45,017 nucleotides of DNA, taken from positions 1 to 45,017 of the forward strand of contig JAIOQY010000073.1 in the NCBI GenBank assembly GCA_021108435.1, written 5' to 3'. The notes beneath the pieces were generated by a model, which saw only the letters and a list, made by a program, of their open reading frames with translations, made no database searches and had not been told where the DNA came from. Shown in pieces: positions 2,358 through 44,444 of this stretch. The DNA is from Candidatus Aegiribacteria sp. (lineage in GTDB: Bacteria; Fermentibacterota; Fermentibacteria; Fermentibacterales; JCC-6). The position numbers and the translations under genes were made by a program. Numbering within the stretch: the stretch's first letter is position 1; each line of letters opens with the position of its first letter.

Positions 2358-3128
2358 ATGAAACCGATGATCAACTTCGATCAATATTACCATAAATACC
2401 TTGGCGTTGATACGGAACGCATGAAAGCAGGAAATCGAGTCTTTCCATGCGAGAGAAGAGCAGAATCATTTGCTTTCTTCTATGTACACCATCTGATTTC
2501 AACAGTTATTGATGGGAATGTGATATTCTCTGTTTCTCCGGAGTTTGCTCCTGCCTTTGAGATTCAACGTACAGCACTTTCAGACAACCTTGTTAATGAG
2601 GAATTACTGAAAATGATCGATGATACTTTCTTTGATTTCCTTCCGGTCCTGCTTTACAGCACCAGACTTATGATACGAATGACACTGGATAAGGGAGAAT
2701 TGGTCAAACAAAAAAAGAAGATCCAGGTTAATGTTCTCTCAGAATCAGACAAGGCCAGGTTCATTTCTCGCTGGATTGTTAGAGGAAAGAAATCTATTGA
2801 ATATTTGTGGGACGCAAGAGCAGAAACTATTCGTGCCGGCAGATACTTCACTGCTTTTGAGAAAGATGAAATCGCTTCTTCAGCATACATATCAGATATT
2901 GATTACCAGGGAGCAAATATTACGGTAGGAACAGGTTTAAAATTCAGGAAAAAAGGATATGGAAAAGCTGTTGTCAGCCATGCGACTGAATGGTGCTTCA
3001 CGCATGGATATCGACCAATATACCTTGTAGATATTAACAACAAACCATCGATTAAACTGGCTGAGAGCCTGGGTTTCAGGGAGATGTCTCGGGAAGTTAT
3101 CGTATCGTCGTACAATGAAATCCATTAA
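2358..3128 (+). CDS. GNAT acetyltransferase with N-terminal extension
   Basis: A 256-residue protein with two parts. Residues 1 to about 130 form a domain I do not recognise by motif (it includes FFYVHHLISTVIDGNV). Residues from about 150 on form a GNAT domain, with the acetyl-CoA loop FRKKGYGKAVVSHATEWC and the C-terminal KLAESLGFREMSREVIV. This layout matches the longer two-domain GNAT enzymes in which the first half resembles a degenerate acetyltransferase fold. The start is uncertain: ATG at 2358 or the ATG three codons later at 2367, both behind GAGAG. The substrate is unknown. Confidence 0.83.
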   Translation: MKPMINFDQYYHKYLGVDTERMKAGNRVFPCERRAESFAFFYVHHLISTVIDGNVIFSVSPEFAPAFEIQRTALSDNLVNEELLKMIDDTFFDFLPVLLYSTRLMIRMTLDKGELVKQKKKIQVNVLSESDKARFISRWIVRGKKSIEYLWDARAETIRAGRYFTAFEKDEIASSAYISDIDYQGANITVGTGLKFRKKGYGKAVVSHATEWCFTHGYRPIYLVDINNKPSIKLAESLGFREMSREVIVSSYNEIH

Positions 3129-3194
3129 TAATAATCGATTGCCAGAACGTCAAAAACGCTGCTTCGAAACATTTATATATCCACATGCTTAAGC

Positions 3195-3220
3195 CTGATG
3201 CAAAAAAAAAGGAGCATCAG
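3195..3220 (+). promoter_or_regulatory. Hairpin that carries the ribosome-binding site in its loop
   Basis: Perfect 7-base arms CTGATGC (3195-3201) and GCATCAG (3214-3220) enclose a 12-base loop of nine A followed by GGA, so most of the Shine-Dalgarno sequence (AAAGGAG) is in the loop. The ATG of the next gene starts two bases after the stem. In mRNA this would present or hide the ribosome site depending on folding. The structure is seen directly; a regulatory role is inference. Confidence 0.4.
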
Positions 3221-3222
3221 AT

Positions 3223-4079
3223 ATGTGGTTAAAAGTTATTGTGATTGCGATTATCGTTCTGGTTTTCGTGATTACGGCAGCAATCCTCTACGGCGCGAAC
3301 CGGTGGCAGTCGAACACGAAAGAACTGTATTCGAAGATGGAGGCAGCACGCTTACCGATCAGCCCTGAATCGTATTATTCACACGAATGGGATGGGCTGC
3401 CCGTTCCTGTTCAGCGGTATTTCCGCGCTGTTCTAAAAGAGGGGCAGCCATTGATTGCGGCGGTCAACCTTGAACACACTGGAACATTCAACATGAGTGA
3501 AACAGGAGAACAATGGAAGCCGTTCAAGTCGACTCAGCGCGTCATTACGCAGTGCCCGGGTTTTGTCTGGGATGCACGCATCTGTATGGTGCCGTTGCTT
3601 AACGTTTTTATCCATGATGCCTACATCGCTGGTGAGGGTGTTCTGACTGCGAAGCTGTTCGGTTTCCTGACAGTGATGGAGCAACCAGGTATTCCGGAAC
3701 TGGCACAGGGAGAGCTGATGCGTTTTTTCGCTGAAGCGGTATGGTATCCCACAGCACTTCTTCCGGGTCAGGGTGTGATTTGGGAGGCAATTGATGACGC
3801 ACACGCCAGTGCTACTCTTACCGACGGTATAACTACAGTAAACTGGTGTTTCAGTTTGATGCTCAGGGATTAATCAGTTCAGTTTATTCCCATGGCCGAT
3901 ACCGTGAAGCGGACGGAATGCAGATAATAACCCCATGGCAGGGTCGTTTCTGGAACTACGAATTACACGACGATATGCTTATACCATTTGAGGGCGAAGT
4001 GGAATGGCTGCTGCCGGAAGGACCAAAACCTTACTGGCGCGGCCATATTCAGCAAATCGAATACGAATATACGGATTAA
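3223..4079 (+). pseudogene. DUF6544-type membrane-anchored protein, broken by a frameshift
   Basis: The first part (3223-3873) has an N-terminal membrane segment (VIVIAIIVLVFVITAAILYG), then a soluble domain with LPVPVQRYFRAVLKEGQP, TFNMSETGEQWKPF and FFAEAVWYPTALLP. These match, from memory, a family of uncharacterised proteins called DUF6544 (or DUF6920). The reading frame runs off at about 3843 into a stop at 3873, while the family's C-terminal half (FQFDAQGLISSV, ITPWQGRFWNYE, EGEVEWLLPEGPKPYWRGHI) continues in the frame one base back and ends at 4079. One missing base near 3844 (AAC TGG where AAC CTG GTG would be expected) explains it. There is no slippery heptamer, so I read it as a mutation or a sequencing error, not programmed frameshifting. 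Function unknown. Confidence 0.82.
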
Positions 4080-4112
4080 CCGCCTGATACAGGTACAACA
4101 GCCGCTATGGAA

Positions 4113-4340
4113 TTATTTGTCTTCAATCTCATCCAGAGCTTCGCTCAGTGAATCCCGAACCTGCTCCATCAATTCAGGCGTCAATGTAATACCCTTGCGA
4201 GTGGGCTTCCAGTCGCCCTTGTCATCCATATAGTAAATCCTGGCGCCAATGTACTGATTTCCTTTGAATTCAGACAGTTCTATTCGTACCAGATCCGTAC
4301 CCTTCTCGATATCCCTGATAGTTTTTTCCAATGGTTTCAT
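4113..4340 (-). CDS. PC4/Sub1-like single-stranded DNA-binding protein (YdbC type)
   Basis: A 75-residue protein with the PC4 transcriptional co-activator fold: LVRIELSEFKGNQYIGARIYY, then DKGDWKPTRKGITLTPELMEQV, which is the beta-sheet plus C-terminal helix signature of bacterial PC4-like proteins. Family members bind single-stranded DNA as dimers and are linked to transcription or repair. I start it at the ATG at 4340, with GGAGAGG directly upstream (unusually close). A TTG at 4379 in the same frame would add 13 residues but has no ribosome site. It faces the frameshifted gene convergently, 33 bases away, and lies downstream of nrdJ on the other side of the nrdJ stop, so it is transcribed from the same strand as nrdJ but upstream reading order makes it the later gene. 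Confidence 0.82.
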   Translation of the reverse strand: MKPLEKTIRDIEKGTDLVRIELSEFKGNQYIGARIYYMDDKGDWKPTRKGITLTPELMEQVRDSLSEALDEIEDK

Positions 4341-11072: not shown

Positions 11073-11954
11073 CTAATAAAATTTGATAATCCTGAGAGAA
11101 CCGGAGCTGCTTCCAATATGATTGAATTTTACGAAGTAAGCACCGGATGGAACGTGATTTCCGGAATCATCAACTCCGTCCCATATTACTGCAGATGAAC
11201 TTATGCCCTGGTATACCGCTTCAATACTTCTCACAGGATGCCCGGAAATATCATAGATGAGGAATGTTACATCATCAGATATCCCGGATAAATTGAATGT
11301 TACAACAGAGTGGAACGGATTAGGTTCAACGGAAACACTGAACTCATCACAGCCTGGATTCGTATCTTCAGCAACTCCAGTCTCTGGAACCGCTTGAAAC
11401 CAATCCCAGTATGCGTGATACTCGCCTCCTGTCATCAAACCCACACGTCCAGAAACAGGAGCTGGGTCAATTGCTGAAAATTCCCATTGCTGTTCAGTTG
11501 ACGGAACTTCAATAAGGAAAATCAGACTATCTCCCCTGCAGGTAAATGTAAGATTGTACCATACATTTGATGGGAAATTGTAGTATATGGAATTGTATTT
11601 GGTGCTGACATTTCCGTTGTATACTCGTCGAATCCTTGCTACATCATGATCCGGTGAAACATAAGCACATACACCGTTATTCGGATCATACATGCGAGCT
11701 GCAACTCCGCAAACGTGAACAGCTTGAGTTCTTGTAGTCACAACGCAATCCTCAAACTCCACATATTCGGGAGCCAGCAATGCTGCGCAACTGGCAGTAT
11801 GATAAGCATGAACCATGGAATCAGCAGCAACCCATTTACCGAGAAGGCAGGAAACCTGCCAGTCACTTATATCATTATCAGAGAAATCGTCATAAAATCC
11901 GAGTACAGTTGAGAAAACAGCAAGAATAAGAATAAGGTATACTGATAAACGCAT
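11073..11954 (-). CDS. Secreted beta-sandwich protein with FlgD-like / type IX-style C-terminal module
   Basis: A 293-residue exported protein. The signal peptide is residues 1 to about 19 (LSVYLILILAVFSTVLGF). Then comes a domain opening with DDFSDNDISDWQV and containing VYNGNVSTKYNSI and GRVGLMTGGEYHAYWDWF, which resembles the laminin-G/DUF1080-type jelly roll that often binds sugars. The last ~85 residues (VEPNPFHSVVTFNLSG, LIYDISGHPVRSI, VIWDGVDDSGNHVPSGAYFV) are an Ig-like FlgD module of the type found at the C-termini of exported proteins in FCB-group bacteria. An AGGAGG site lies ten bases before the ATG and a near-consensus promoter lies just upstream. No catalytic residues are evident. 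Confidence 0.85.
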   Translation of the reverse strand: MRLSVYLILILAVFSTVLGFYDDFSDNDISDWQVSCLLGKWVAADSMVHAYHTASCAALLAPEYVEFEDCVVTTRTQAVHVCGVAARMYDPNNGVCAYVSPDHDVARIRRVYNGNVSTKYNSIYYNFPSNVWYNLTFTCRGDSLIFLIEVPSTEQQWEFSAIDPAPVSGRVGLMTGGEYHAYWDWFQAVPETGVAEDTNPGCDEFSVSVEPNPFHSVVTFNLSGISDDVTFLIYDISGHPVRSIEAVYQGISSSAVIWDGVDDSGNHVPSGAYFVKFNHIGSSSGSLRIIKFY

Positions 11955-13210: not shown

Positions 13211-14362
13211 TTACTCGGTTGTTAGAGCAAGAATCGCTGATGCCAGATTATTCCAGGAGTATTTGTGCTTTTCCTCAGCAATTCCTTCAGCTAATCCAGA
13301 TGCAAAATCTTCATCAAAAAACCGGATTACGGCATCTGCCAGCTTCACCGCATCTTTAGGGGGAACAAGAAATCCAGTTAAGCCATCGTGTACTACTTCG
13401 GGCAATCCACCAACTTCTGTTGTTACCACTGGCAGATCGTAATTGTAGGCTATCTGAATAATACCGCTCTGAGTTGCTGATAGATACGGAAGCACGAGGA
13501 GATCTGATGCAATGAAATAGTCCTCTACTTTATTGTCAGGAACGAAGCCGATATCGAACGATATTATATCTTCGGCACCTGAATTCTTAATTCTGTCGTA
13601 ATAAGGCGCACTGTCTCCGTAAACATCCCCAACTATCAACACTCTGATCCCATTACCATATTTGGCTTTCAGAACGGGACATGCGTCAATTAAATAGTCA
13701 ACTCCCTTGTACGGCTTGATGAATCCGAAGAACAGAATAACCTTGATATCTGCTGGAAGTCCCAGGTCTCTCCTGGTTTCACTTCTACTTTTTCTTTCCA
13801 CGCCGGGTTCACCGAAGTCATAAACTGGATGTGGAATCAACCTGATCCTATCCTTGTTAACCCCCGGCAGTACAGAAAGAAGATCGCTCTTCACATTCTC
13901 TGACTGTGCTATGAACCCATAACCCTGATTTAATGCAACTTTTCCCAGTATACGGCTGAAAGGCTGTTTTTCATGTGGTATAACGTTATCAAGTATATAG
14001 ATAGTCCTGATATCGGTGTATCGATTGAGAAGATAAGCAACTGCCGCATAACCGAGTGCAAAGAAAGGCAACCAGTACTTCATTATTACTGATTCAGGAT
14101 TCTCTTTTCGGATATCCCTGTAAGTCCTGTACCAGCTTACGGGGGACCATGGTACAAATCGTGGACTGTTCTCCATTATGATCCAGGAGGCAACTTCCCC
14201 AAGCTGATCCGATCCTGGAAACAAAAACCGTGGATACTGCTTCTTAAATGAAGACCAGTATAGTTCATTTCCTTCTTTCTTGAGTTCTCTTGCCAGCATC
14301 CCAAGATATGTAACGATACCTCCCCGGAATGGTGGAGCTGGACCAAGAATGCAGATTTTCAT
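13211..14362 (-). CDS. GT4-family glycosyltransferase (GT-B fold)
   Basis: A 383-residue glycosyltransferase. The N-terminal lobe starts [20 protein letters not shown], the glycine loop of GT-B enzymes. The C-terminal lobe has [18 protein letters not shown] and then [19 protein letters not shown] and [20 protein letters not shown], the nucleotide-sugar-binding E-x7-E-type region of family GT4. I start it at the ATG at 14362, which overlaps the GT9 stop (ATGA); the frame is open further upstream but that part overlaps the GT9 gene. The two enzymes are clearly translated together and probably add successive sugars to the same glycan at the cytoplasmic face. Confidence 0.92.
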
Positions 14363-15432
14363 TTCGAACTCAGCAGACAGTTTATGGCTTCCAGCACGGT
14401 ATCGGGCATCAGTGTTTCCATGCAAAAGCTCTTATTCGTACATTTGGGTTGGAAGAAGCATGTGCATTTCTGTTCGGGAGCAAGAATAACTCCCCTCCCG
14501 TATAGTTCAAATTCATGAGGATTGAAGATATTGTTAAACAGAACAAGCTTTTTCTTCAGACCGATCGCTATATGCATAGCCATTGTAACCGCAGTGACTA
14601 CTACCTTACATCTATCCATAACTGAAATGAACTCATTCAGTGAGAAGTAACCTGGATAGTATGCATCTGTTATCCTCGAAATCCTGGAATTCTTCTCATC
14701 TTCTTCTGGTCCACCAAGAAGCATGACCCTGTTCCCATGATTAAGAAGAAGTCGGGTCAGATCAACCCAGTATTTCTCAGGCCATAATCTGCTGGTCCAT
14801 CTGCTTCCACATCCAGTATTCAATCCTATAACAGGCCCTGTGCCGGGAATCTCCAGATCCACTTGAGTATCCGGTGGGTCCAGGATGTACTCCTCCCCAT
14901 GAAACTCATAGCCACACATGGCCATCGTTTCTTCAACATAGGATAGCGTATTCTTCATGTTTGAATCATCGAATAAACCTGTAATGAACTTGTCCTTTGC
15001 TGCTCCTTCATCACATGGACTGCAGATACCACTGTCATCAAGAATAAAACCCAGCTTCCGCCCGGCGTTTATCTCTTTCGCCAGAGCACAGGCTTCTCTG
15101 TCTTTATCAAGATTTATAAGAAGATCAAAGTACGTGTTTCTCAACCATAGTATTGATTCAGGTGAAAACGATAAAGGATCATCTATGATTGAAGGGAGAA
15201 GGTCAGTGTACTTGCTGAGCCATGTAATCCTATGAGAGGAATAATCCTTTTTTAAAGGTTCCAGAATGGGTGTGGTTCTGATCACATCACCGGCAGCAGC
15301 CAGCTTGATTATCAGAATTCGACCATCTGCTTTCAGATACTCCGGGCACGAACTGCAATGATATCCATGTAGTTTGTGTGGTTTGCACGGTATGTGTCCA
15401 TGGAAATGAATGCAATCAGTTTTTATCATCAT
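14359..15432 (-). CDS. GT9-family (heptosyltransferase-like) glycosyltransferase with Cys/His-rich N-terminus
   Basis: A 357-residue protein of family GT9. The core shows [20 protein letters not shown] at the start of the N-lobe and [34 protein letters not shown] and [20 protein letters not shown] in the C-lobe, as in ADP-heptose:LPS heptosyltransferases. Before the core lies [20 protein letters not shown] followed by SSCPEY, and near the end [17 protein letters not shown]. Two Cys clusters at the ends suggest one metal site closing the protein. I start at the ATG at 15432 (GGAAGGG upstream); a TTG at 15450 is also open. Whether the sugar is heptose cannot be said. Confidence 0.88.
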
Positions 15433-15533
15433 ACTGGAGGTCCCTTCCAAAGTTCGCTGCGAAGTGAATTTGATCAGTTGCCTTCAAACAAGCTGTATCA
15501 TCGCTTTCGTTGTAGTATATATATATTTGTTTA

Positions 15534-15636: not shown

Positions 15637-16533
15637 CTGAATATTCTGATAACCGGAGCAGGTGGCTTTATTGGCTCGGCAGTATTCACCCATCTAACAC
15701 AGAAGGATCTCTCGGTAGAGAGACATATAAGATCCATTCACGGTGATCTGACTGAAGCTTCCATCCCCGCTACGGTGGATGTAATTGTTAACTGCGCTGG
15801 CAAACTGGGGATTCCAGGTGTTGATTCAGATCAGTTAACTAAATCCAATGTAATCCTGCCATTGATGCTGGCGGATGTATGCAAAAGCAGACAGATTCAT
15901 CTAATACACCTGAGCACACCTGGTATTGCAGGTCTTCATGCAGATATTATGGAAGAAAGTCCAGCTGATCCATGGGGAGATTATGAGATATCAAAACACC
16001 AGGGTGAGGAGGTTCTGCGTAAACATGATATCTCCAAATCAGGGCAGCTGACAATATTAAGACCGGATTTTGTCTATGGTCCTGGAGATCGACATAAATT
16101 GCCATTCTTCAAGCAGGTGAAAAAAGGTTACCTTCCACTGATCGGTTTGAAAGGTGGAAGGATCAGACCAACCTTTGTTTCAGACGTCTGTAACGCAATT
16201 GTGAATTCAATGCCTGGAAGATGCCTGAATGCGGGACTCTTTAATATCGGTGGTCCTGAGGTTGTATCTATTAAAGAGTTTGGCGCTCTGATAGCACAGA
16301 TAATGGAAAGGAAGCTTACAACGATTCCGCTTCCTCGATTTCTTTACGCTTTAGCTCTGATATCAGGACCATTCAAACCAAGGTCTCTATCATACAGCAG
16401 ATTGAGACTTTTCAGTGAAGATCACTACGTATCTATCAGCAAAGCTGCTGAGGCAGGATTTGTATCCTCGGTCTCGCTTTCTGATGGTATATATAAAACA
16501 CTGGAGTGGTATAGATTCGAGAAACTGCTATGA
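15637..16533 (+). CDS. NAD-dependent epimerase/dehydratase family protein, apparent CTG start
   Basis: A 298-residue short-chain (extended SDR) protein. The N-terminus reads NILITGAGGFIGSAVFTHL, the G-x-x-G-x-x-G NAD loop. HLIHLSTPGIAGL corresponds to the active-site strand, and DYEISKHQGEEVLRK carries the Tyr-x3-Lys pair. ILRPDFVYGPGDR and FNIGGPEVVSIKEF complete the family pattern. The coding frame must begin at about 15637, where the codon is CTG, preceded six bases earlier by GGGAG. No ATG, GTG or TTG is in frame between there and far upstream, and the first later GTG (15775) would remove the NAD loop. Its 3' end overlaps the next gene (ATGA). It probably remodels a nucleotide sugar for this locus. 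Confidence 0.85.
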   Translation: MNILITGAGGFIGSAVFTHLTQKDLSVERHIRSIHGDLTEASIPATVDVIVNCAGKLGIPGVDSDQLTKSNVILPLMLADVCKSRQIHLIHLSTPGIAGLHADIMEESPADPWGDYEISKHQGEEVLRKHDISKSGQLTILRPDFVYGPGDRHKLPFFKQVKKGYLPLIGLKGGRIRPTFVSDVCNAIVNSMPGRCLNAGLFNIGGPEVVSIKEFGALIAQIMERKLTTIPLPRFLYALALISGPFKPRSLSYSRLRLFSEDHYVSISKAAEAGFVSSVSLSDGIYKTLEWYRFEKLL

Positions 16534-17486
16534 CAGGAAGGCAACGTCTTCTCTGGCTTAGCAGAGCTGTATTACTGGTGCTGATTGTACTGGCAATACT
16601 TCTAATCCTCAAGTATGGAAGCGAATGGCTTTCTGAAATAGCTCAACTGAACTGGGAACCTGACCCTATTCTTGTTGCTCTTTCAGCTCTTCTTCTTTTC
16701 ATTTCTCTCTGGTTGACACCTTTCGCGTGGATATGGATATCAAGAAAACTCGGATCTACTTCCAGCTCGAGCGAACTCAGAGGTATATGGTTCGCGAGCC
16801 ATCTTGGTAGATATGTTCCGGGGAAGATCTGGCTTTTCGTCGGCAGAGCTGGTTATCTGAAATCAAACGGGGTCAGCACATTGAATTCTGCTCTGGCTCC
16901 AGTGTATGAGTTAATGCACACAGCTGCCGCAGTTGGCGTTATCACCATTTCTGCTGCATTGTTGTTTCCAGAATTTCTTAACTCAGATATTCTAAGAATA
17001 ACGGCAGTTGTAGCTGGTATATGCATGCTGGTTCTACCGTTGCTTCATCCCATACAGAAGTATGTTTATCGACTCAGGGAGAAGAGAAGCGGTAATGCTG
17101 TCGGCTCTGGAAGAACGAATCGTATAACTTTTCTTCCATTGAGTCTTTCAATGAAGATGATCAGCCTTTTCTCTGCTGTCTTTATTATCAGAGGGCTTTC
17201 CCTATTCATTCTTCTTGCGGCTCTCGGAATATCCAGCAAAGGGATTTTGGCTTGCATAACTGCAACCCCGCTATCCTGGCTGGCCGGGTATATTGTTTTC
17301 CTCGTACCTGGTGGCATTGGCGTAAGAGAAGCCGTAATCGTTTCAATGATAGCGGGTCCGAGTGAGACTGGTCCCGTGCTTGCAGCTGTACTGGGTCAGA
17401 GATTACTGCTTGCTGCAATAGAAGTGATCTTAGCCGTAATCAGCGCGAAATCAATTTCGTTTCTCCGAAAGGAAGGAAAGGGATAA
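16530..17486 (+). CDS. LPG-synthase-type (UPF0104) multi-pass membrane protein
   Basis: A 318-residue membrane protein with about eight helices. The family marks are WFASHLGRYVPGKIWLFVGR near residue 90-110 and FLVPGGIGVREAVIVSMIAG near residue 250-270, ending in PVLAAVLGQRLLLAAIEVIL. These are the conserved loops of the lysylphosphatidylglycerol synthase transmembrane domain family (MprF N-terminal domain, AglD). Members move or modify lipid-linked molecules; the MprF domain is a flippase. The ATG overlaps the epimerase stop (ATGA), so the two are coupled. A homologous domain occurs in the radical SAM fusion 4 kb downstream and a decayed 3' end of a third copy lies at 18524. Confidence 0.87.
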   Translation: MTGRQRLLWLSRAVLLVLIVLAILLILKYGSEWLSEIAQLNWEPDPILVALSALLLFISLWLTPFAWIWISRKLGSTSSSSELRGIWFASHLGRYVPGKIWLFVGRAGYLKSNGVSTLNSALAPVYELMHTAAAVGVITISAALLFPEFLNSDILRITAVVAGICMLVLPLLHPIQKYVYRLREKRSGNAVGSGRTNRITFLPLSLSMKMISLFSAVFIIRGLSLFILLAALGISSKGILACITATPLSWLAGYIVFLVPGGIGVREAVIVSMIAGPSETGPVLAAVLGQRLLLAAIEVILAVISAKSISFLRKEGKG

Positions 17487-17672
17487 GGAAACACCCGATC
17501 TGGCAGAGGTGTATACTTCCGGACGCGGTTTCTGGCTGTATCATCAATTCAAGTTGAAATCGGAGAAATAGCTATGCTGAGAACTGTCCTGGTATTGTGA
17601 AAAATCCAGTTTCCTTTTATTTTCACTTGCATTTAGTGATTAGAAGAATAATAAACTTTAAGGAACTTTGTG
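17487..17672. other. Gap with a short protein-like remnant
   Basis: One frame stays open from inside the end of the membrane-protein gene to a stop at about 17571. Its last residues, EVYTSGRGFWLYHQF then KLKSEK, look like the natural end of a protein. No start or ribosome site belongs to it. It may be the tail of a lost gene that once followed the LPG-type gene. Downstream the gap is AT-rich and probably holds the methyltransferase promoter. Confidence 0.3.
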
Positions 17673-18419
17673 ATGAAAGATAATCCTCAAAAGGTATCTC
17701 TTAGTGAGAAGGAACTTGCTTTCTTTGATCAACGGGCAAAGTTATATGATAAGATGATTATAAGCACTTCGCCTGTAGGTATGGATCGTATAAAACGCCG
17801 GGCTCGGTCGATTACTCAGGGTGCTGAACTGAAAGAGGGGATGACTGTTTTAGAACTCGGTTGCGGCACTGGAGAATACACGAAAGAATTTGCCGAAGAA
17901 AAAGTGCAGTTGGTTTCCCTGGACATTTCACCGGAGATGGTAAAAGTAGCCAGATCCAAGACGGGGAACAGCGTGAAATATATCGTCAGCAACGCTGAAC
18001 AGCTCCCTTTTAAAGACGGTGTTTTTGACTCCGTTCTGGGCAACGCTATTCTCCACCATTTTCCTGATTTAAGTACAGCCTTGCTGGAAGTAGGGCGTAT
18101 TAAGACGCAACGGGCAAGAATTGTATTCAGGGAACCAAATTTGTATAATCCCGGTAAATTTTTCGCGTTCGGTATCCCGATACTGCGGTTATTCAGGAAA
18201 AACCGCTGGTCGCCGTCAGAGAAAGTATTTTCCCGTTCGTTCATCAAGAAATTACTTGAGAAGACCGGATACTCCGTGGTGGATATTGAATATGCCGGAT
18301 TGGTGGGTTCCAGATGCCCGACGTCGATTAGCAACTTCTTGTACCGGGTAGAGAGATGGGTCTCTAAAATACCTGTTTTGAACGCGCTTATGGGTTCCAT
18401 GATTATCCAGGCTAAATAG
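17673..18419 (+). CDS. Class I SAM-dependent methyltransferase (Methyltransf_11 type)
   Basis: A 248-residue methyltransferase with the SAM loop TVLELGCGTGEYTKEF, the acidic strand LVSLDISPEMVKVAR, and SNAEQLPFKDGVFDSVLGNA then ILHHFPD as motif II/III. The C-terminal part ends in a hydrophobic MGSMIIQAK. Start is the ATG at 17673 with AAGGAA seven bases upstream; a GTG one codon earlier is in frame. It is flanked on both sides by what look like fragments of other genes and sits between two LPG-type sequences, so it may have been inserted into the locus. The acceptor is unknown; sugar or lipid methylation is the likely theme. Confidence 0.88.
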   Translation: MKDNPQKVSLSEKELAFFDQRAKLYDKMIISTSPVGMDRIKRRARSITQGAELKEGMTVLELGCGTGEYTKEFAEEKVQLVSLDISPEMVKVARSKTGNSVKYIVSNAEQLPFKDGVFDSVLGNAILHHFPDLSTALLEVGRIKTQRARIVFREPNLYNPGKFFAFGIPILRLFRKNRWSPSEKVFSRSFIKKLLEKTGYSVVDIEYAGLVGSRCPTSISNFLYRVERWVSKIPVLNALMGSMIIQAK

Positions 18420-18667: not shown

Positions 18668-20998
18668 TTGATTTCATTTCCGAAAAGAACAGGATATCTG
18701 CTTTTTCTAATTCCTGCAGTACTAATAACCTATTCAACTGTCTTTACATCAGGAAAACTGCCTGGCGGGGAACTCAGCGATACGGTAACTCAGGGATATC
18801 CCTTCTTTACATACACAGCTGAATCTCTTCAGAATGGCAGTCTCCCACACTGGAATCCTTACATATTCTGTGGTATTCCATTCTACTCTTCATTTTCTGC
18901 CCCTGTTTTCTATCCCGTTCGCGGTTTGCTTCTGCTGATCACAGGTTTAGAAGGTATGGTACGTTTTCTCTTTCCCATTCAGATGCTTCTTGGAGGAATA
19001 TTCGCATGGCTCTTTCTCGGGTCCATCGGAGTAAGCAGGTGGGGCAGAATAGCCGGTTCTATTGCTTTTGCCGCAACAGCCTGGTCAAATACACTGGTCT
19101 ATGCTGGACATGGCAGCAAGATAGTTTGCTGGAGTTTTCTACCTCTGCTTCTGTACGCATGTGAAGGGTGGATGCAGACAAGAAGAGGAAAATACATAGC
19201 AATTGGCGGTATAGCACTAGGTATGCAAACCCTCGCCAGCCATCCACAGATGGTTCTATACTCAGTTGGGGCCTCTCTAATCTGGTTCGGCTTCCGGGCT
19301 TTCTCCAGAAAGGGATCTATTGGCAAGAACCTTGGCAGTGCAACTATTGGAATAACGGTTATCGTACTTCTTGCAGTAGCGATTGGAGCCGTTCAGCTGC
19401 TGCCGGGATATAATTATTCAGAGTATTCCTCAAGGGGTGATAATCTATCTTTCGATCAGGCGTCAAGCTATTCTCTCCCTCCTGAAGAAACACTGACAAT
19501 GCTGTTCCCGCATCTTTTCGGTTACAGGCACGGATTTCCTGACAGTACGTTTTCTGGTGTTCCCCTCTATTTTGGCAGACTCGGACTGAGATTAAGCAGT
19601 GAGTTCACAGGTGTTCTAGTCTTTTTGCTGGCACTTGCCGCATTTCTGGGCTTTTCAAAAAAATACAGATGGCCTCTGCTGGCTGTCATGGTGACAGGAC
19701 TTCTCATATCATGGGGCGGTTATACCCCGTTCTTCGGAGTACTCTACAAGATAGTACCGTTCTTCCGTAAGCTTAGAGCTCCGCATATGGCCGCATTCCT
19801 TACGACTTCTGCTATAGCACTTGCTGCTGGCCCCGGTTTTGATTCGATTTTCTGTAACGATAGTTTTCCCAGAAAGAAGTTCCTTATCGGGATTTCCGTT
19901 TTTGCAGGCATATGCGTATTAATTTTCCTCCTCGCTGATTCTGTACTGCCCGGTCTGCAATCCGGCTGGTGGTCCAGAATGCAAAACCCCCTGGCTTCAG
20001 GATACGCTTCCGTAGTACATAGAAGAGTTGATATTGCTTCACCGGATTTTCTGAAAGCCGCTGCTGCCGCTCTGATTCTGGCAGGTTTAATCTATTTCAG
20101 AAATAGAATCAAAATGGGGCTGTTGATCCCGGGTTCTGTCCTTACGGTTCTGATTGCTGTTGAAATAATACCGGTGGACAAAGATTTCCAGTTCTACCTG
20201 GATGAAACAAGTGTTGACGAACTTTTCGAAGACTACAGCGATTTGTCCGCACTGACAGAATCCGGGCGACTTCTCATTGGTGGAAACAAGTTTATTCCCT
20301 ACCATATCAGATCGGTAGGTGGCTATCATGCGGCAAAAACCGCTATTGCGGAAGACCTCCAGAGTATTATTTCAACAGCCGGGGTCACAGCAGCCAGGCA
20401 GACTGCTTTCACTGTTCTTCAGACACAGGATAGTTACTTCACATATCCGCAGTTCAGAAATTATCTAATCGAACAGGCCTCGTCTTCCAATCCATCCTAT
20501 GTCGATACACTCGAAGCCTTGCTTCCTGAAGAACATCTTCCAAGGGTATGGTTTGCTGAATCCTGGGTAGTGCTATCGGAGAATCAGTGTCTGAATCTTC
20601 TAACGAGCGGCATCGATCCGCAAAAGATTACGATACTGTACGAAAGTTCTGAACTGCCCGAAATGCTTAATACAATAGAAGCGGAAGCAACAATAGTACT
20701 TGATGAACCCCAACAGGTTACTATTCGAACTGATAACCCGGAGGATGGTCTTCTTGTCCTTGCCGATACATGGTACCCGAGGTGGCGTGTATTCATAGAT
20801 GGAGAACCAGCTTCAATGATGCAGGCAAATCACTGGCAGCGGGGAGTTGTTGTACCTTCCGGACTGCATGAAGTAGAATTCAGGTTTGATTCATCCGATG
20901 TTACCACCGGTCTTATCATATCAATTGCGGGATTGATATGTTCCATTCTCCTTATTGTATCTGATCTAATAATTAGAAGGAAACGGAAATCGGCTTAA
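18668..20998 (+). CDS. YfhO-like GT-C membrane glycosyltransferase
   Basis: A 776-residue multi-pass protein of the YfhO family. Early residues carry SDTVTQGYPFFTYTAESLQN and LPHWNPYIFCGIPFYSSF, the acidic first periplasmic loop typical of GT-C enzymes. About a dozen helices follow, then a soluble C-terminal beta domain with DTWYPRWRVFIDGEPASMMQ and GLHEVEFRF, and a last helix with a basic tail. In Bacillus, YfhO uses the polyprenyl-phosphate sugar made by CsbB to glycosylate teichoic acid; here the acceptor is unknown. The start is a TTG at 18668 with GGAGAGGGG eight bases upstream. Its stop overlaps the next ATG by one base (TAATG), which couples it to the fusion gene. Confidence 0.87.
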   Translation: MISFPKRTGYLLFLIPAVLITYSTVFTSGKLPGGELSDTVTQGYPFFTYTAESLQNGSLPHWNPYIFCGIPFYSSFSAPVFYPVRGLLLLITGLEGMVRFLFPIQMLLGGIFAWLFLGSIGVSRWGRIAGSIAFAATAWSNTLVYAGHGSKIVCWSFLPLLLYACEGWMQTRRGKYIAIGGIALGMQTLASHPQMVLYSVGASLIWFGFRAFSRKGSIGKNLGSATIGITVIVLLAVAIGAVQLLPGYNYSEYSSRGDNLSFDQASSYSLPPEETLTMLFPHLFGYRHGFPDSTFSGVPLYFGRLGLRLSSEFTGVLVFLLALAAFLGFSKKYRWPLLAVMVTGLLISWGGYTPFFGVLYKIVPFFRKLRAPHMAAFLTTSAIALAAGPGFDSIFCNDSFPRKKFLIGISVFAGICVLIFLLADSVLPGLQSGWWSRMQNPLASGYASVVHRRVDIASPDFLKAAAAALILAGLIYFRNRIKMGLLIPGSVLTVLIAVEIIPVDKDFQFYLDETSVDELFEDYSDLSALTESGRLLIGGNKFIPYHIRSVGGYHAAKTAIAEDLQSIISTAGVTAARQTAFTVLQTQDSYFTYPQFRNYLIEQASSSNPSYVDTLEALLPEEHLPRVWFAESWVVLSENQCLNLLTSGIDPQKITILYESSELPEMLNTIEAEATIVLDEPQQVTIRTDNPEDGLLVLADTWYPRWRVFIDGEPASMMQANHWQRGVVVPSGLHEVEFRFDSSDVTTGLIISIAGLICSILLIVSDLIIRRKRKSA

Positions 20999-23100
20999 TG
21001 ATCAAGGATCGCAAAAAATTGTTCCACCTGCTGTCCACCTGGGGTGGAGTACTCCTGCTTATTATCGCCATTCTCTATTTCGCTCTGGAACTCTGGCCCA
21101 AGTGGGAACCCGGACTGATCAGCTTCTGGGAAAACTCCAGGGACAGTGCAAGCCTTCCAATGATAGGTCTCTCTTTCATCTCGCTGCTACTGGGATACTA
21201 TTTTGCACCTGCGCCATGGAGAAAGATCCTGGAAGCCCTGAAAATTCCAAAGATTGATAAAGGCGAAGTCAGGCGTAACTGGTACACAACTCAGATGGGG
21301 CAGTACGTTCCAGGCAAACTCTGGATGATTGTCGGAAGGATTGCCTTCCTGAAAGCAAACGGGACAGGTCCAGTCAAAGCTATAACAGCCTTTATTCTCG
21401 AAAACCTCTACATGATGGTCACACTGACTATTATGGCCTTGATAGGCCTTCCGTTTCTGGGTCTTGCGAATGTACCTCTTCCTGTAGTAATCGCTCTGTG
21501 GATCTCAGCAGGTCTTGGAGTTGTAATGCTCTTCGCACCGAAAATACAGAGAGTGCTTACTCATAAGCTGAGTCACAGACTGGGAGCAGATATTGATGAT
21601 CTTCCTCATATCTCTCACAGGCACCAGGCTGCATTCATAGGTTACAATCTACTTTCATGGAGCCTCCGGAGCATGGCTCTGTATTTCTGGTTCAGGGGAT
21701 TCGGAGTTCAATCTGATCCACCATTCGCAATGATAGCAATCTGTCTTCTTGCAGGTCCTGTATCCTGGTTTATCGCGCTCATAATGGTTTTCATACCGGG
21801 CGGAATAGGAATAAGGGAAGGTGTTCAGGGCATTCTTCTTTCAGGTTTCGTACACGGTGGAGTCGAAGTTGCTACAGTCATCGCGCTTGGTCAAAGGGTC
21901 ATGCTTATAATTATCGAAGGGTTATATGCTCTTCAGGCAATTGTTTATGGAGCAATGAGAAAAAGATTCACGACAAAAATGAATCATATAGAGCAAGTTT
22001 TTCATCTTGCGGGCAGCTTATTCAAAGGTGCTCTTGCGATGCGAGGACTCTCTCCTCCACCTCAGCCGATCAACGTAACATTCTCTGTTACACGTCGCTG
22101 TCAATCAAGGTGCAAAACATGTTACATATGGAAGCATAACCCCGGTGATGATCTTGATCTTAATACGATTGAAAGACTTTTCAGGTCTATTGGATGGACT
22201 TATTTCTTTAATATCTCCGGTGGGGAGCCGTATCTTAGAGACGATCTACCGGAAATAGTAAGACTGGCATGCAGATTCATGAAACCTGCAATAGTGCATA
22301 TTCCAACAAACGCTCTTGCTCCTGAGCGAATTGAAAGAATAACACTGGAGATACTCAACGCAATTAAGCAGGAAGCACCGGGAACTGTTCTAACTGTAAA
22401 ACCCTCCTTTGATGGAGTAGGAGCTTTGCATGATGAGATCCGAGGCGTACCGGGTAACTTCGAGAAGCTTCTGGATACTATCGAAAGACTGAATAAACTC
22501 AGAGAACAGTATAAGTATCTTCATATTGGAGTTGGAACAGTGATCTCCCGGTTTAATGCTTCTCATCTCAAAGAAATAATCGTATACGCAAGAGGACTTG
22601 GTGTTGATACATACATCAATGAAATAGCAGAGGAACGCGAAGAATTTTTCAATCTGGGGTCAGGAATAACACCGGAAAGCCACAGCTATGATCAACTGAT
22701 GGAAACATTCAAGGAATCAGTCAGAGGAAAAATGAAGGATATGAAAATACTTCCTCGAATTACTACTGCCATGAGGATTGTTTACTACGATCTTGCGGTG
22801 AAGATCCTTGACAGCAATAAACAGGAGATACCATGCAATGCAGGTATACTGAATGTAAACATCAATTCTGATGGCGCCGTATGGCCCTGTGCCGTGCTGG
22901 CTTATAAGGCAGAAATGGGTATAGTCAGTCAGGACAATGATTTCCAGTATATCTGGAGATCAAAGAAAGCAAAAAATATCAGAAAATCAATCAGAAGAGG
23001 GGAATGTGCCTGTCCACTTGCGAATCAAGCTTACTCCAACATCCTCCTCCATCCTCCCAGCCTTCTAAGAGCTCTCTGGATCGCATTCCGAGGCAAATAG
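20998..23100 (+). CDS. Fusion of LPG-synthase-type membrane domain and radical SAM/twitch domain
   Basis: A single 700-residue open frame with two halves. Residues 1 to about 325 are an eight-helix LPG-synthase-type domain (GQYVPGKLWMIVGRIAFL, FIPGGIGIREGVQGILLSGF). Residues about 355-700 are a radical SAM enzyme: VTRRCQSRCKTCYIW with Cys368, Cys372, Cys375 for the 4Fe-4S cluster, and NISGGEPYLRDD with the GGE motif at 408-410. A C-terminal set of four Cys (613, 631, 670, 672, the last two as CAC) resembles the SPASM/twitch auxiliary cluster. The ATG overlaps the YfhO stop. A lipid-side radical chemistry coupled to transport is suggested by the fusion, but the substrate is unknown. The RAYT element begins one base after the stop codon. 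Confidence 0.88.
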   Translation: MIKDRKKLFHLLSTWGGVLLLIIAILYFALELWPKWEPGLISFWENSRDSASLPMIGLSFISLLLGYYFAPAPWRKILEALKIPKIDKGEVRRNWYTTQMGQYVPGKLWMIVGRIAFLKANGTGPVKAITAFILENLYMMVTLTIMALIGLPFLGLANVPLPVVIALWISAGLGVVMLFAPKIQRVLTHKLSHRLGADIDDLPHISHRHQAAFIGYNLLSWSLRSMALYFWFRGFGVQSDPPFAMIAICLLAGPVSWFIALIMVFIPGGIGIREGVQGILLSGFVHGGVEVATVIALGQRVMLIIIEGLYALQAIVYGAMRKRFTTKMNHIEQVFHLAGSLFKGALAMRGLSPPPQPINVTFSVTRRCQSRCKTCYIWKHNPGDDLDLNTIERLFRSIGWTYFFNISGGEPYLRDDLPEIVRLACRFMKPAIVHIPTNALAPERIERITLEILNAIKQEAPGTVLTVKPSFDGVGALHDEIRGVPGNFEKLLDTIERLNKLREQYKYLHIGVGTVISRFNASHLKEIIVYARGLGVDTYINEIAEEREEFFNLGSGITPESHSYDQLMETFKESVRGKMKDMKILPRITTAMRIVYYDLAVKILDSNKQEIPCNAGILNVNINSDGAVWPCAVLAYKAEMGIVSQDNDFQYIWRSKKAKNIRKSIRRGECACPLANQAYSNILLHPPSLLRALWIAFRGK

Positions 23101-23101
23101 C

Positions 23102-24260
23102 AGGGTCGGACATAACATCGTACACTTATGAAATCAGTTGTTCTATAATAAATGGGCGTTCTCTCTGTAATTCTGCCCCTCTCTGGACTGCTTTCGCAGC
23201 ACCAGACCTACTAATAGCGAGTAATCTTGAAATATCTCTATAACTGAGACCATACTTCTGCGAACATATCCATGCTATCGCTCCACGGGCTTCTGCAAGC
23301 TCAGTGCTGCGGCTATTCCCGCAGATCACACTGCGGCATAATCCCATCGTTACTTCCATTTGATTAAATAATCGTTCAATCTTCCTGTGTATATTTTCTC
23401 TGTCCCTGATATCCAGTGATCTGGAATCATTTAACTTACTTAGAACTCTTTTTGCGAATTCCTTATCTCCCAGAACTCTGCAGATACCAGTCCAGTGAGA
23501 AGTTCCAGTTCTCTGATCTGAACTCGTAATTCCATTTGTACCTAAAGTATAACTTCCACAAACCATTTCGCTGGAGGGTAAATCACTTATATTATTCATT
23601 AGAGATGTCTGATAATTCTTTATTGCACAGAGTTCAGTATCACCGAAATTCTCTAATACTGAATCCCTTTTCATCCATCTGCACTCCGTCTTTCCGATAA
23701 GACACGGATGTCCGGACCATTTATATATGTCTAGCTCTTCTAGCGAATTAGCAAGATTAGCCTTTAAAGGATTAAGATGAATGTAGTTAATGAGTTTCAG
23801 AAAATAGTTTTCCTCTTGTACGAGAATTGATTTGAATCGACCCTGAAACACATGTCCAGTTCTGTCATGGCGTCTGTTATATGAAACAGCAAATCCGGTA
23901 AGTAACCGGTGCATCAGGAGACTTATAGGTTCTGGCCCGGTTCGAATAAGAAGATGAAAATGATTAGGCATTATCACCCACGCATATACGGAAAACTTCA
24001 ATTCAATAACAAGTTGTTCCAGCCTGCTTCTAAGATGTTCGTACTCAAATACGTTTGAGAAAAGAGTTCTACCGTCTATCCCCCGTGCCATCACATGGTG
24101 CAGAGCATTTTCCCAGTCTGGGCGCGTGATTCTAGCCATAGTACCTATAGCTTACTCATGAATTCATTTAATTTCAAGGTCTGAATTATGATACAAGAAC
24201 TATTGTCAGTTTATTATGAGATTATTTGTATCACAAGTGTACGTTGTTATGTCCGACCCT
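23102..24260. mobile_element. RAYT (Y1 transposase) element with 31-bp inverted ends
   Basis: The left end (23102-23132, beginning AGGGTCGGACATAACA) matches the reverse complement of the right end (24230-24260) at 28 of 31 positions. Between them lies one transposase gene. The left end sits one base after the stop of the radical SAM fusion gene, and the right end runs into the tsaC-like gene and supplies its stop codon. Y1 transposases normally use hairpins rather than terminal repeats, so the inverted ends are best read as a pair of oppositely oriented REP sequences. A near-identical copy of the right end occurs at 35671-35701. Confidence 0.75.
23126..24139 (-). CDS. REP-associated tyrosine transposase (RAYT, Y1 HUH type)
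   Basis: A 337-residue HUH transposase. It has ALHHVMARGIDGRTLF, the HUH motif VIMPNHFHLLIRT, HVFQGRFKSILVQEENYFL, and NYIHLNPLKANLA with the catalytic Tyr. This is the pattern of RAYT/IS200-like enzymes, which cut and join single-stranded DNA at hairpins. A C-terminal region (GAIAWICSQKYGLSYRDISR followed by LLAISRSGAAKAVQRG) is a helix-turn-helix like that of DnaA and adds length beyond the minimal enzyme. The stop codon lies inside the left inverted end. All key residues are intact, so the enzyme could be active. The ATG at 24139 has only a weak AGG upstream. Confidence 0.9.
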   Translation of the reverse strand: MARITRPDWENALHHVMARGIDGRTLFSNVFEYEHLRSRLEQLVIELKFSVYAWVIMPNHFHLLIRTGPEPISLLMHRLLTGFAVSYNRRHDRTGHVFQGRFKSILVQEENYFLKLINYIHLNPLKANLANSLEELDIYKWSGHPCLIGKTECRWMKRDSVLENFGDTELCAIKNYQTSLMNNISDLPSSEMVCGSYTLGTNGITSSDQRTGTSHWTGICRVLGDKEFAKRVLSKLNDSRSLDIRDRENIHRKIERLFNQMEVTMGLCRSVICGNSRSTELAEARGAIAWICSQKYGLSYRDISRLLAISRSGAAKAVQRGAELQRERPFIIEQLIS

Positions 24261-30043: not shown

Positions 30044-32530
30044 ATGAATACACTGCTCCTGCTTGCTCTTCTGGTTCAGACACCTGTTCCGGTGGGATCG
30101 GTGCAGCGCTCAATGGCACAGGTTGAACCATCTCCGCTTTCAAGCCTTCCGGCAGATTTCCACAGATCGGTTTCCGTCTCTCCTGACAGGGGTGATTCGG
30201 ATGTTATCATCATAATTGCAGAAGGACTTGAGATCCCTCTTGCTTCAGAGCTTGCACAGTTCGAATCCGATCTGTCAGCGGAGGGCTGGAATGTCACTTC
30301 GTGGATTATGAGTGGCGGATCAGCGGCTGATCTGAGGACTTTCCTCCAGATGCATTCAGATATCAGCGGAGCGGTGCTTGTCGGAAATCTTCCACGAGCG
30401 TGGTATGAGATGGATGAGTTCACCGGACAACACGAGGAATTTCCGATGGATCTCTACCTGATGGATCTTGACGGAATATGGTTGGATATCGACGAAAATG
30501 GCTTGCTGGACAGTCTTTCCGGCGACAGGGCACCGGAGATCTGGGTGGGCAGAATCGACGCTCATGCGATGGAATTCGGCAGTGAACTCAGTCTATTGAA
30601 AGACTACTTCGCCTCAAACCACCTTTACAGAACCGGAAGCCTGTCGGTACCGGCAAGGGCGCTTGCATTCAACGATGATGACTGGAGTTATTACGGCAGC
30701 TGTGGTCTTGAGAACATCTATTCAACTGTTGAAGTGGTGAACAGTAATTCTCAAACTACTGCAGACAACTACAAGGCAGAGCTGACAGAAGGCTACGAAT
30801 TCGTTCATCTAATGTCCCACTCATCACCATGGGGACATACTTTCAGAGTTTCATCAGGTTACGGCGGCACTGTCATGGCTCCCGAGATTTCCTGCATAAA
30901 CCCGCAGACTGTATTCGTTCAACTCTTCGCGTGCTCCAACTGCAGATGGACGGAACCGAACTGTCTTGGAAACTGGTATCTCTTTGGAACGGACTATGGC
31001 CTTCTTGCTATCGGATCAACCAAGACAGGGGCTATGCTGGATTTCAGTGAATTCTACGAACCTATCGGCTCAGGCAATATACCCGGGGTTGCATTCAGAA
31101 CCTGGTTCACAAACGTAGGCATTTATAATCCGGACTGGCACTACGGATGTGTACTGCTTGGCGATCCGACAATCATGCCGCTCTCAGGCAGAGATCGCTT
31201 ATCATCAACATTCCCGGTATCGGATGAAACAGATGACTACATTCAGGTTTCAACCAGCAGCTTTTCTGACTGTTATCCTGTTACAGCATCTTCGGGAAAC
31301 AATACCTGGGTTGCCTGGCTCACAGCCGAAAACGGAAGATTGGATATAGCAGCAAGAAACTGGGATGGTGATGTATGGAGTTCTGTTTACTACGTTGACG
31401 CCGACGAATACTGGGATGTTACACCTGATATGGCGCTGGATGGAAACGGTGAGCCCTGGCTTGCATGGAGCGATTTCGATGTTTCAACATATGGATACAA
31501 TGTGAAGACCGCTTCAGGATCATTCTTCAACAACGTAACCGTAGCGGCAAATGGCGATGGTTACGACGGTGCTCCACAACTAGCTTATACGGACAGGATG
31601 TGGCTTGTCTGGCAGGTATGGAGGCGCGGTGAAGGTGATATAATGATCAAGGCGCTTGATGGATCATTCCCGGAAACCTACCTTTCCGGCATTAATACCG
31701 GAGAAATCTCACCAACCGCAGCAGCTGATATTTCGGGTTATCTTCATGCGGCATGGGTCGAGGGAACCACATCAGGTGAGAGAATAATGTGGACCAGGGG
31801 AAGTGAAACAGGATTCTTAGCTCCTGTGGAGGTATCCTCCGGTAACTTCTGCCGCTCACCTGAACTCGTACTTGTCGAAAACACTCTTCTCCTTCTCTGG
31901 CAGGAAGATGACGATAATTCAAGAATTATTGCGCAATTCTGGAACGGAACCGGATGGGACGATGAAGAAGAGCTATTTTCATCCCCAACACTTCAGGCAT
32001 TCGCGCCGACAGCCGGACTCTCTCTTTCAGGAAATATCTTCGCCGCATGGCAGATTGGAAATGGTACTGACGCTCAAATCTGGCAGAGTACTCTTGAAGG
32101 CGCGGAATGGTCCAGCCCCTCTCAGCTGGTGAATCCAGCAGGGGAAGCATGGCTGCCTGCTCTTTCTGACGGCATTATTGCCTGGGCCGGTACGGGAGGG
32201 GACAGCTCCTGGAACATATACGCCTCGCTTGACGGAGGGGTCGGGATTTCATCTGAGGAGGAATTATCCGTTGCCTTCATATTCGACATTCTTGGCAATC
32301 CTGTCAATCAGGTGGTAAGACTCTCGGTTCCCGCTTTAAATCCTGCTTCTGCGCCTTTCAATGTATTGATTTATGATCTTACCGGAAGGTGCGTATTCAG
32401 ACAGGAACTCACCACCGGACCGGAAACAGTTCTCACTATTCCCTGCACACATCTTCCACCCGCTGTATACTGCCTCAGAGTCTCGGATTCTCAGAACAGC
32501 TGGTCCTCACTGTTCACCATCATAAGATAA
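30044..32530 (+). CDS. Secreted C25 (gingipain-type) peptidase with C-terminal sorting-like module
   Basis: An 828-residue exported protein with signal peptide at residues 1-20 or so. Residues about 45-385 form a caspase-like C25 domain: SDVIIIIAEGLEIPLASELA, GAVLVGNLPRAWYEM, APEIWVGRIDA, and EFVHLMSHSSPWGH with His259/His265, then TVFVQLFACSNCRW with Cys297 as the likely nucleophile (gingipain pattern of His then Cys). A long middle region (about 400-730) repeats W-rich strands such as WVAWLTAENGRLDIAARNWD and WLAWSDFD, like a beta propeller. The end (FNVLIYDLTGRCVFRQEL, PPAVYCLRVSDSQNSW) is the FlgD/type IX-style module. Ribosome site GGGAGAGG. Substrate unknown. Confidence 0.87.
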   Translation: MNTLLLLALLVQTPVPVGSVQRSMAQVEPSPLSSLPADFHRSVSVSPDRGDSDVIIIIAEGLEIPLASELAQFESDLSAEGWNVTSWIMSGGSAADLRTFLQMHSDISGAVLVGNLPRAWYEMDEFTGQHEEFPMDLYLMDLDGIWLDIDENGLLDSLSGDRAPEIWVGRIDAHAMEFGSELSLLKDYFASNHLYRTGSLSVPARALAFNDDDWSYYGSCGLENIYSTVEVVNSNSQTTADNYKAELTEGYEFVHLMSHSSPWGHTFRVSSGYGGTVMAPEISCINPQTVFVQLFACSNCRWTEPNCLGNWYLFGTDYGLLAIGSTKTGAMLDFSEFYEPIGSGNIPGVAFRTWFTNVGIYNPDWHYGCVLLGDPTIMPLSGRDRLSSTFPVSDETDDYIQVSTSSFSDCYPVTASSGNNTWVAWLTAENGRLDIAARNWDGDVWSSVYYVDADEYWDVTPDMALDGNGEPWLAWSDFDVSTYGYNVKTASGSFFNNVTVAANGDGYDGAPQLAYTDRMWLVWQVWRRGEGDIMIKALDGSFPETYLSGINTGEISPTAAADISGYLHAAWVEGTTSGERIMWTRGSETGFLAPVEVSSGNFCRSPELVLVENTLLLLWQEDDDNSRIIAQFWNGTGWDDEEELFSSPTLQAFAPTAGLSLSGNIFAAWQIGNGTDAQIWQSTLEGAEWSSPSQLVNPAGEAWLPALSDGIIAWAGTGGDSSWNIYASLDGGVGISSEEELSVAFIFDILGNPVNQVVRLSVPALNPASAPFNVLIYDLTGRCVFRQELTTGPETVLTIPCTHLPPAVYCLRVSDSQNSWSSLFTIIR

Positions 32531-44049: not shown

Positions 44050-44369
44050 GTGATTTCCTCAACGGTGACTGCACCAATCAGCTCGCGCCCGACAGCCATG
44101 AGCTGCGCAAAACAGTCGTTCCGGTCAATCTTCCGCTGACGGAGAAGCCCTTCAAGCATCTCGCCTTCCGGCAGAAGTCCGTCGAAAAAAGCGGGGAATC
44201 TTAAAAATTCATGGATTTTTTCCCCGACAGGCATTGTAAGCGAAATCGGATGGCCATCGTAACTATCACGATAAACAAACCTGTATTCTCTGTTGGTCAC
44301 CCACTCCTCAAGGATACCGGCCCATTGACCGTGCATGAACACTTTTGCCTGTCTTATCGGTTCCGACAT
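44046..44369 (-). CDS. hipS: HipS-like antitoxin (HipA N-terminal subdomain as a separate protein)
   Basis: A 107-residue protein matching only the N-terminal subdomain 1 of HipA (AKVFMHGQWAGILEEW, then LRFPAFFDGLLPEGEMLEGL followed by LRQRKIDRNDCFAQLMAVG and IGAVTVEEI). In the HipBST systems this domain is its own small protein and is the part that neutralises HipT. I start at the ATG at 44369, which has AGGAG eight bases upstream; a longer frame to 44408 has none. It lies between hipB and hipT in the expected B-S-T order and overlaps hipT by ATGA, so the two are made in step. Confidence 0.87.
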   Translation of the reverse strand: MSEPIRQAKVFMHGQWAGILEEWVTNREYRFVYRDSYDGHPISLTMPVGEKIHEFLRFPAFFDGLLPEGEMLEGLLRQRKIDRNDCFAQLMAVGRELIGAVTVEEIT

Positions 44370-44444
44370 GATAGAACTCCTGAAATCCTGATGTTCCGGA
44401 TATGACACCGAATAATCGTTTTATCTCCAGTCAAATGCAGACCC

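Follow-up and report, generated by a model that had tools for sequence, protein, structure and literature searches.

A conserved Fermentibacterota gene that joins a UPF0104/MprF-type membrane domain to a radical SAM/twitch enzyme in a glycan operon

The joining of a lipid-handling membrane domain and a radical SAM enzyme in one gene raises the question of whether the two halves form a genuine protein and what such a protein might do. The gene lies in a stretch of 45,017 nucleotides from Candidatus Aegiribacteria sp. (contig JAIOQY010000073.1), hereafter the window. It was singled out by a sequence-only reading, which knew of no described enzyme with this order of domains. Its host belongs to the Fermentibacterota, a phylum that has seen very little experimental work. 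If the pathway proposed below is true, the role of radical SAM chemistry at the membrane reaches past hopanoids to the assembly of surface glycans.

Architecture of the fusion gene

The gene and its parts are arranged as follows.

20998..23100, + strand: fusion gene, UPF0104/LPG_synthase_TM plus radical SAM plus SPASM/twitch; 700 aa, single open frame.
21142..21900, + strand: PF03706 membrane domain, residues 49-301, with GQYVPGKLW (101-109) and PGGIGIRE (267-274); from Pfam, motifs and a predicted MprF-flippase-like fold.
21955..22047, + strand: inter-domain joint, about codons 320-350, where the closest ancestry changes; from codon-wise comparison.
22084..22509, + strand: radical SAM core, residues 363-504, with CxxxCxxC (368-375) and GGE (408-410); from Pfam and alignment.
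22834..23013, + strand: SPASM/twitch auxiliary-cluster domain, residues 613-672, with Cys 613, 631, 670 and 672; from Pfam and alignment.

All domains score above their Pfam cut-offs (PF03706, 54.7 bits against 33.4; PF04055, 48.8 against 29.5; PF13186 SPASM, 30.9 against 21.5), which bears out the uninterrupted UPF0104/MprF-radical SAM frame described by the sequence-only reading. The same is true of the residues that it had listed: C-x3-C-x2-C, GGE and the four C-terminal cysteines are all present, and the seven cysteines (368, 372, 375, 613, 631, 670 and 672) are identical in an alignment of 33 distinct fusions. Most residues of the two membrane-half motifs are likewise identical, with GxYxPGxxW found in 33 of the 33 proteins and PGGxGxRE in 32. 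Two divergent orthologues (L035 and L034) score below the PF03706 gathering cut-off. Both halves are under strong purifying selection, with dN/dS of about 0.05-0.07 (some dS values being saturated).

Across 43 radical-half sequences, the only invariant cysteines are the seven cluster cysteines. The seven C-terminal cysteines of a full SPASM domain, which go with two auxiliary clusters, are absent, and the four invariant ones fit the one-cluster twitch type named in the original reading, despite the SPASM profile score. The extra conserved catalytic cysteine of EpeE/NeoN-type epimerases is also absent from these 43 sequences; with no spare cysteine as hydrogen donor, a cysteine-dependent epimerase is unlikely. 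Among the matches listed (25 of 39 families), no named NCBIfam radical SAM equivalog reaches its cut-off, the best scoring 55 bits against 306. The DUF2156 aminoacyl-transferase domain of MprF has no Pfam match in the fusion protein. Both parts belong to known families, and it is the combined architecture that appears undescribed: a literature search found no description of it, in keeping with the initial claim.

Distribution of the fusion

The fusion gene has a match in 41 of 42 Fermentibacterota genomes, including all 24 of good quality, and both halves share one open frame in at least 35. Since these genomes were assembled separately, the fusion is neither a chance event nor an artefact of one contig, and the concern raised with the first reading is thereby cleared. 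Contig ends or frameshifts break the fusion in three genomes (G034, G005 and G026), the radical enzyme is unfused in two that keep the operon (G013 and G006), and two incomplete genomes (G018 and G020) gave no clear orthologue. The fusion is real and conserved, built from known families in a sensible context.

Beyond the Fermentibacterota, no fusion was found among the matches in about 450 sampled genomes; in a sample of this size, rare fusions in other phyla may have been missed. The high-scoring matches outside the phylum correspond to the radical half only. They are mostly free proteins of ~350-430 aa with ~30-52% identity, and they include one from an archaeal MAG contig (L040). Three long outside frames were considered as fusions and rejected: L079 and L112 are without PF03706, and L077 combines radical SAM with a flavin reductase. 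This last protein (L077, 9124-11127; genome G277) carries C-terminal FAD- and NAD-binding reductase domains, which are possibly its own electron supply. Plasmid and phage records hold only distant radical SAM proteins (22-27% identity), and the viral structure library gave only generic radical SAM proteins among the matches listed. A set of Brachyspira plasmid genes (radical SAM, glycosyltransferase and epimerase) is similar in make-up, a likeness by gene content only (PMC4267127).

The operon and its neighbours

In most relatives, the core operon consists of genes for a GT4 glycosyltransferase, an SDR, a stand-alone UPF0104 protein, a YfhO-like protein and the fusion, followed by a convergent Sua5-type gene. 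This supports the placing of the gene in a glycan cluster. The window holds these genes upstream of the fusion:

13211..14425, - strand: GT4 glycosyltransferase; a related GT4 heads the operon in most relatives.
14359..15450, - strand: GT9 (heptosyltransferase-type) glycosyltransferase.
15637..16533, + strand: SDR-type NAD-dependent epimerase/dehydratase; listed ORF start 15775.
16530..17486, + strand: stand-alone UPF0104/PF03706 protein, 318 aa; Pfam 32.5 bits, slightly below the cut-off; sister of the fused half.
17670..18419, + strand: accessory methyltransferase between the UPF0104 and YfhO-like genes, outside the conserved core.
18668..20998, + strand: YfhO-like GT-C-type membrane protein, 776 aa; one-base overlap with the fusion gene.

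The window thus deviates from the usual order, having its GT4 gene on the opposite strand together with GT9 and a methyltransferase inserted. A methyltransferase 85% identical to this one occurs in another locus (L013) at a different place in the operon: there, positions 2960-4208 hold a broken copy of the first part of the fusion gene and the methyltransferase, between YfhO and the intact fusion. The nucleotide-binding motif of the SDR lies upstream of the first ATG, GTG or TTG of its frame, which opens near 15637, and the gene probably starts at a non-standard codon such as CTG at that position.

The YfhO-like and fusion genes meet at TAATG, and most relatives also show an overlap here, of 1-17 bases. 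The coupling first described between them stands, and the label of the partner has to be qualified: the window gene does not reach the Pfam YfhO profile, and its name comes through an outside protein that matches its family and scores PF09586 (YfhO) at 76.7 bits, so that the similarity is indirect. Among 18 loci outside the phylum, chosen by the similarity of their UPF0104 to the fused half alone, a YfhO-family gene adjoins UPF0104 in 11, once on the opposite strand (L169, L173, L176-L180, L183, L184, L187 and L188). The pair recurs in many lineages, and UPF0104 plus YfhO therefore looks like a module that extends beyond the Fermentibacterota. In many of the loci examined, the free relatives of the radical half lie near GT2, GT4, GT9, PMT_2/YfhO GT-C, SDR or pyruvyl-transferase genes. 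Their spread across many lineages points to a broader radical SAM/twitch family tied to glycan genes and apparently without a name.

Other genes of the window include one for an IS200-like Y1 transposase, immediately 3' of the fusion gene, whose C-terminal region is DnaA-like (23126-24139, - strand), one for a gingipain-type protein (Peptidase C25) whose type IX secretion sorting tail is weak (30044-32530) and one for another possible sorting-tail protein (11073-11954, - strand). A protein with a HipA-type C-terminal domain (43102-44049, - strand) lies beside a small gene (44046-44408, - strand), possibly as a toxin-antitoxin pair.

Predicted structure and topology

The full-length protein was modelled with AlphaFold2 (mean pLDDT 85, pTM 0.75). 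In fold, the membrane half of this model is matched by MprF, and the radical half by SkfB, DesII, anSME, SuiB, BlsE, PqqE, EpeE and BtrN. SkfB is the best match by both fold and profile, and anSME and SuiB also match. When the membrane half was modelled alone, its top four fold matches, the only convincing ones, were all MprF (TM-scores 0.53-0.58), with modest E-values (0.005-0.025). When the membrane segments are assigned manually on the model, the loops on one side carry 4, 10, 5, 0 and 4 lysines plus arginines, against 2, 0, 0 and 0 on the other, which places both termini and the radical half on the cytosolic side. The free relatives were examined for membrane anchors, and the amphipathicity of their linker and C-terminal helices is not clearly above the background of the protein itself; a membrane-bound substrate is thus not indicated for the free enzymes.

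Origin and loss of the membrane half

In the UPF0104 tree, the fused halves and the stand-alone UPF0104 proteins of the operon are sister groups (support 100/98), and neither the outside sequences nor a further paralogue from the same genome falls with them. This fits a duplication of the UPF0104 gene of the operon, after which one copy was fused to a free radical enzyme that already existed, and the membrane half probably arose in this way.

The tree of the radical domain groups all Fermentibacterota in one clade (100/100). The unfused enzyme of G013 (locus L039) is nested in it among fused Aegiribacteria, and the membrane half was most likely lost there. That of G006 (L099) has a basal position that the tree does not resolve, so it is either a relic from before the fusion or a second loss. 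The membrane half was not found elsewhere in G013 (98% complete) or in G006 (80%), which speaks against its relocation within these genomes. Since the operon exists in nature both with and without the fusion, the importance of the membrane half can be tested directly.

Recombination and co-variation of the two halves

The codon-wise comparison shows that the ancestry of the window gene changes along its length. From codon 1 to ~320 it is closest to L010 and L011, with third-position identities of ~75-85% against 40-60% for L009 and L021. From codon ~340 it is closest to L009 and L021 (~70-80%), with L011 near 45%; L010 stays similar until about codon 400 and then falls to ~42%. By these identities, the window gene is a recombinant whose two parts meet where the domains adjoin. 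The nearest relatives also differ among the upstream genes, YfhO, the membrane half, the radical half and the downstream genes, a mixture as in a diversifying surface-glycan locus.

We compared how the parts vary together across 12 Aegiribacteria loci. The identities of the radical half follow those of the separate UPF0104 protein closely (r = 0.89, partial 0.87) and those of its own attached membrane half much less (r = 0.42, partial 0.03). The attached half correlates at 0.68 with YfhO and at 0.76 with Sua5, the flanking gene. When the window, L009 and L021 are left out, all parts correlate more evenly, and the partial correlation of the radical and attached halves is -0.29; seven Sabulitectum loci show the same trend weakly (-0.10). 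Because it comes from few loci of related genomes and is driven largely by a few recombination events, the co-variation is suggestive rather than proof. It suggests that the working partner of the radical enzyme is the separate UPF0104 protein, and that the job of the attached half need not match the sugar. Together with the recombination at the joint, it implies that the halves need not share a substrate pocket. The joint pocket expected by the sequence-only reading, already weakened by the free radical enzymes and by the two lineages without the membrane half, is probably the wrong expectation.

A possible pathway and its rivals

The observed architecture, operon and conservation, the origin of the membrane half with its loss in one lineage, and the parallel variation of the radical half and the separate UPF0104 are the basis of a pathway in which we infer the substrate, the reaction, the flipping and the order of the steps. 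The product of the operon would be a sugar on a lipid carrier, exported to become part of a surface glycan. The GT4 and SDR enzymes would build the sugar on its lipid at the inner face, and the radical SAM/twitch enzyme would alter the lipid-linked sugar at the cytosolic face, most likely by an oxidation or similar rearrangement rather than by cysteine-assisted epimerisation. Auxiliary clusters in the BtrN and anSME families go with oxidation chemistry, and the four-cysteine cluster would, by analogy, fit a reaction of this kind. The radical change on a lipid-linked sugar or a lipid that the sequence-only reading proposed is thus far plausible. The UPF0104 protein would then carry the modified sugar across the membrane, and the YfhO-like GT-C protein would transfer it outside. 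The fused membrane half would act as a tether that keeps the radical enzyme at the membrane, perhaps with additional capacity for flipping, without being essential. The conserved operon, the glycan-gene neighbours of the free relatives, the DesII, BlsE and BtrN fold matches and the cytosolic radical half speak for this pathway. Against it stand SkfB and anSME, which act on peptides or proteins and are equal or better fold matches, the indirect YfhO similarity, the named radical SAM families far below their cut-offs, the unremarkable amphipathicity of the linker and C-terminal helices and the small base of the co-variation (12 loci). We give the pathway as a whole a probability of about 0.45. 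A more specific version, in which a membrane-embedded system found throughout the phylum modifies a polyprenyl-linked sugar by radical chemistry before a flippase and a GT-C enzyme act, with the radical enzyme as a specificity module that species exchange through recombination where the domains meet, is tentative and on balance doubtful.

Three other readings of the fusion have to be weighed against this pathway. The fusion could work as a bifunctional machine like MprF, the strong form of the idea in the sequence-only reading: a lipid or a lipid-linked sugar would be modified by the radical half at the inner face and then flipped by the membrane half of the same protein. It has the flippase-then-enzyme order of MprF, the membrane half retains the family motifs and an MprF-like fold, and strong selection acts on both halves of a fusion kept in so many genomes; yet G013 has lost the membrane half and G006 is without it while the operon is retained, it is the separate UPF0104 with which the radical half co-varies, and recombination has occurred at the joint of the window gene. 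We regard such a machine as rather unlikely. More improbable is that the enzyme acts on soluble nucleotide-activated sugars, as DesII and BlsE do, its membrane attachment being incidental. The presence of these two and BtrN among the fold matches, an SDR sugar enzyme in the operon and the relatives, most of them free and apparently soluble, favour this, but most of the phylum has retained a membrane half, which, with UPF0104 and YfhO as close neighbours, points to a step at the membrane. We see little chance that the protein is a peptide or protein maturase of the SkfB/anSME type with the membrane half only an anchor. The leading fold and profile match to SkfB, with anSME and SuiB behind it, argues for a maturase; its neighbours, however, are genes for glycosyltransferases, SDR, UPF0104 and GT-C proteins, no conserved peptide-precursor gene was noticed (small ORFs not being covered systematically), and it has four C-terminal cysteines against the seven typical of full SPASM domains.

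Comparison with known systems

Known systems share some parts of the proposed pathway each. BtrN, BlsE and DesII have the radical SAM fold and serve, as soluble enzymes, in pathways for antibiotic sugars or nucleosides, with low identity (about 15-17%) to the radical half; DesII acts on a TDP-sugar and BlsE on a sugar nucleoside. HpnJ is a radical SAM enzyme of another group and has no membrane domain fused to it. It acts on a glycosylated hopanoid (PMC12583986) and resembles the proposed enzyme in working on the sugar of a membrane lipid, with an epimerase (HpnA) and a glycosyltransferase (HpnB) encoded nearby.

In Pseudomonas aeruginosa, the gpgSDF operon encodes a GT4, a UPF0104 protein and an enzyme that modifies the sugar, all three acting on one glycolipid (PMC12713373). 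A GT4, a UPF0104 protein and a putative sugar-modifying enzyme occur here as well, but the modifying enzyme of gpgSDF is a deacetylase, and the operon has neither radical SAM nor YfhO. Multi-component transmembrane glycosylation systems of the CsbB/GtcA/YfhO type combine a glycosyltransferase, a flippase and a GT-C protein (PMC8035078). In gene order, the operon described here resembles such a set of cytosolic glycosyltransferase, flippase candidate and GT-C transferase, but it has a GT4 in place of a membrane-linked GT-A-fold enzyme, UPF0104 in place of GtrA, an additional SDR and radical enzyme, and only an indirect similarity to YfhO.

UPF0104 domains are predicted flippases, found fused in AglD and MprF (PMC5898192). 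AglD, of archaeal N-glycosylation, also joins UPF0104 to an enzyme of a sugar pathway (PMC5898192), but it has an N-terminal GT2 glycosyltransferase followed by UPF0104, whereas the fusion has the reverse order and a radical SAM enzyme. MprF has the same layout as the fusion, an N-terminal PF03706 flippase-type domain followed by a cytosolic enzyme domain. The fusion differs from it in that its enzyme is radical SAM/twitch and not DUF2156, its membrane half is shorter, and its context is one of glycan genes.
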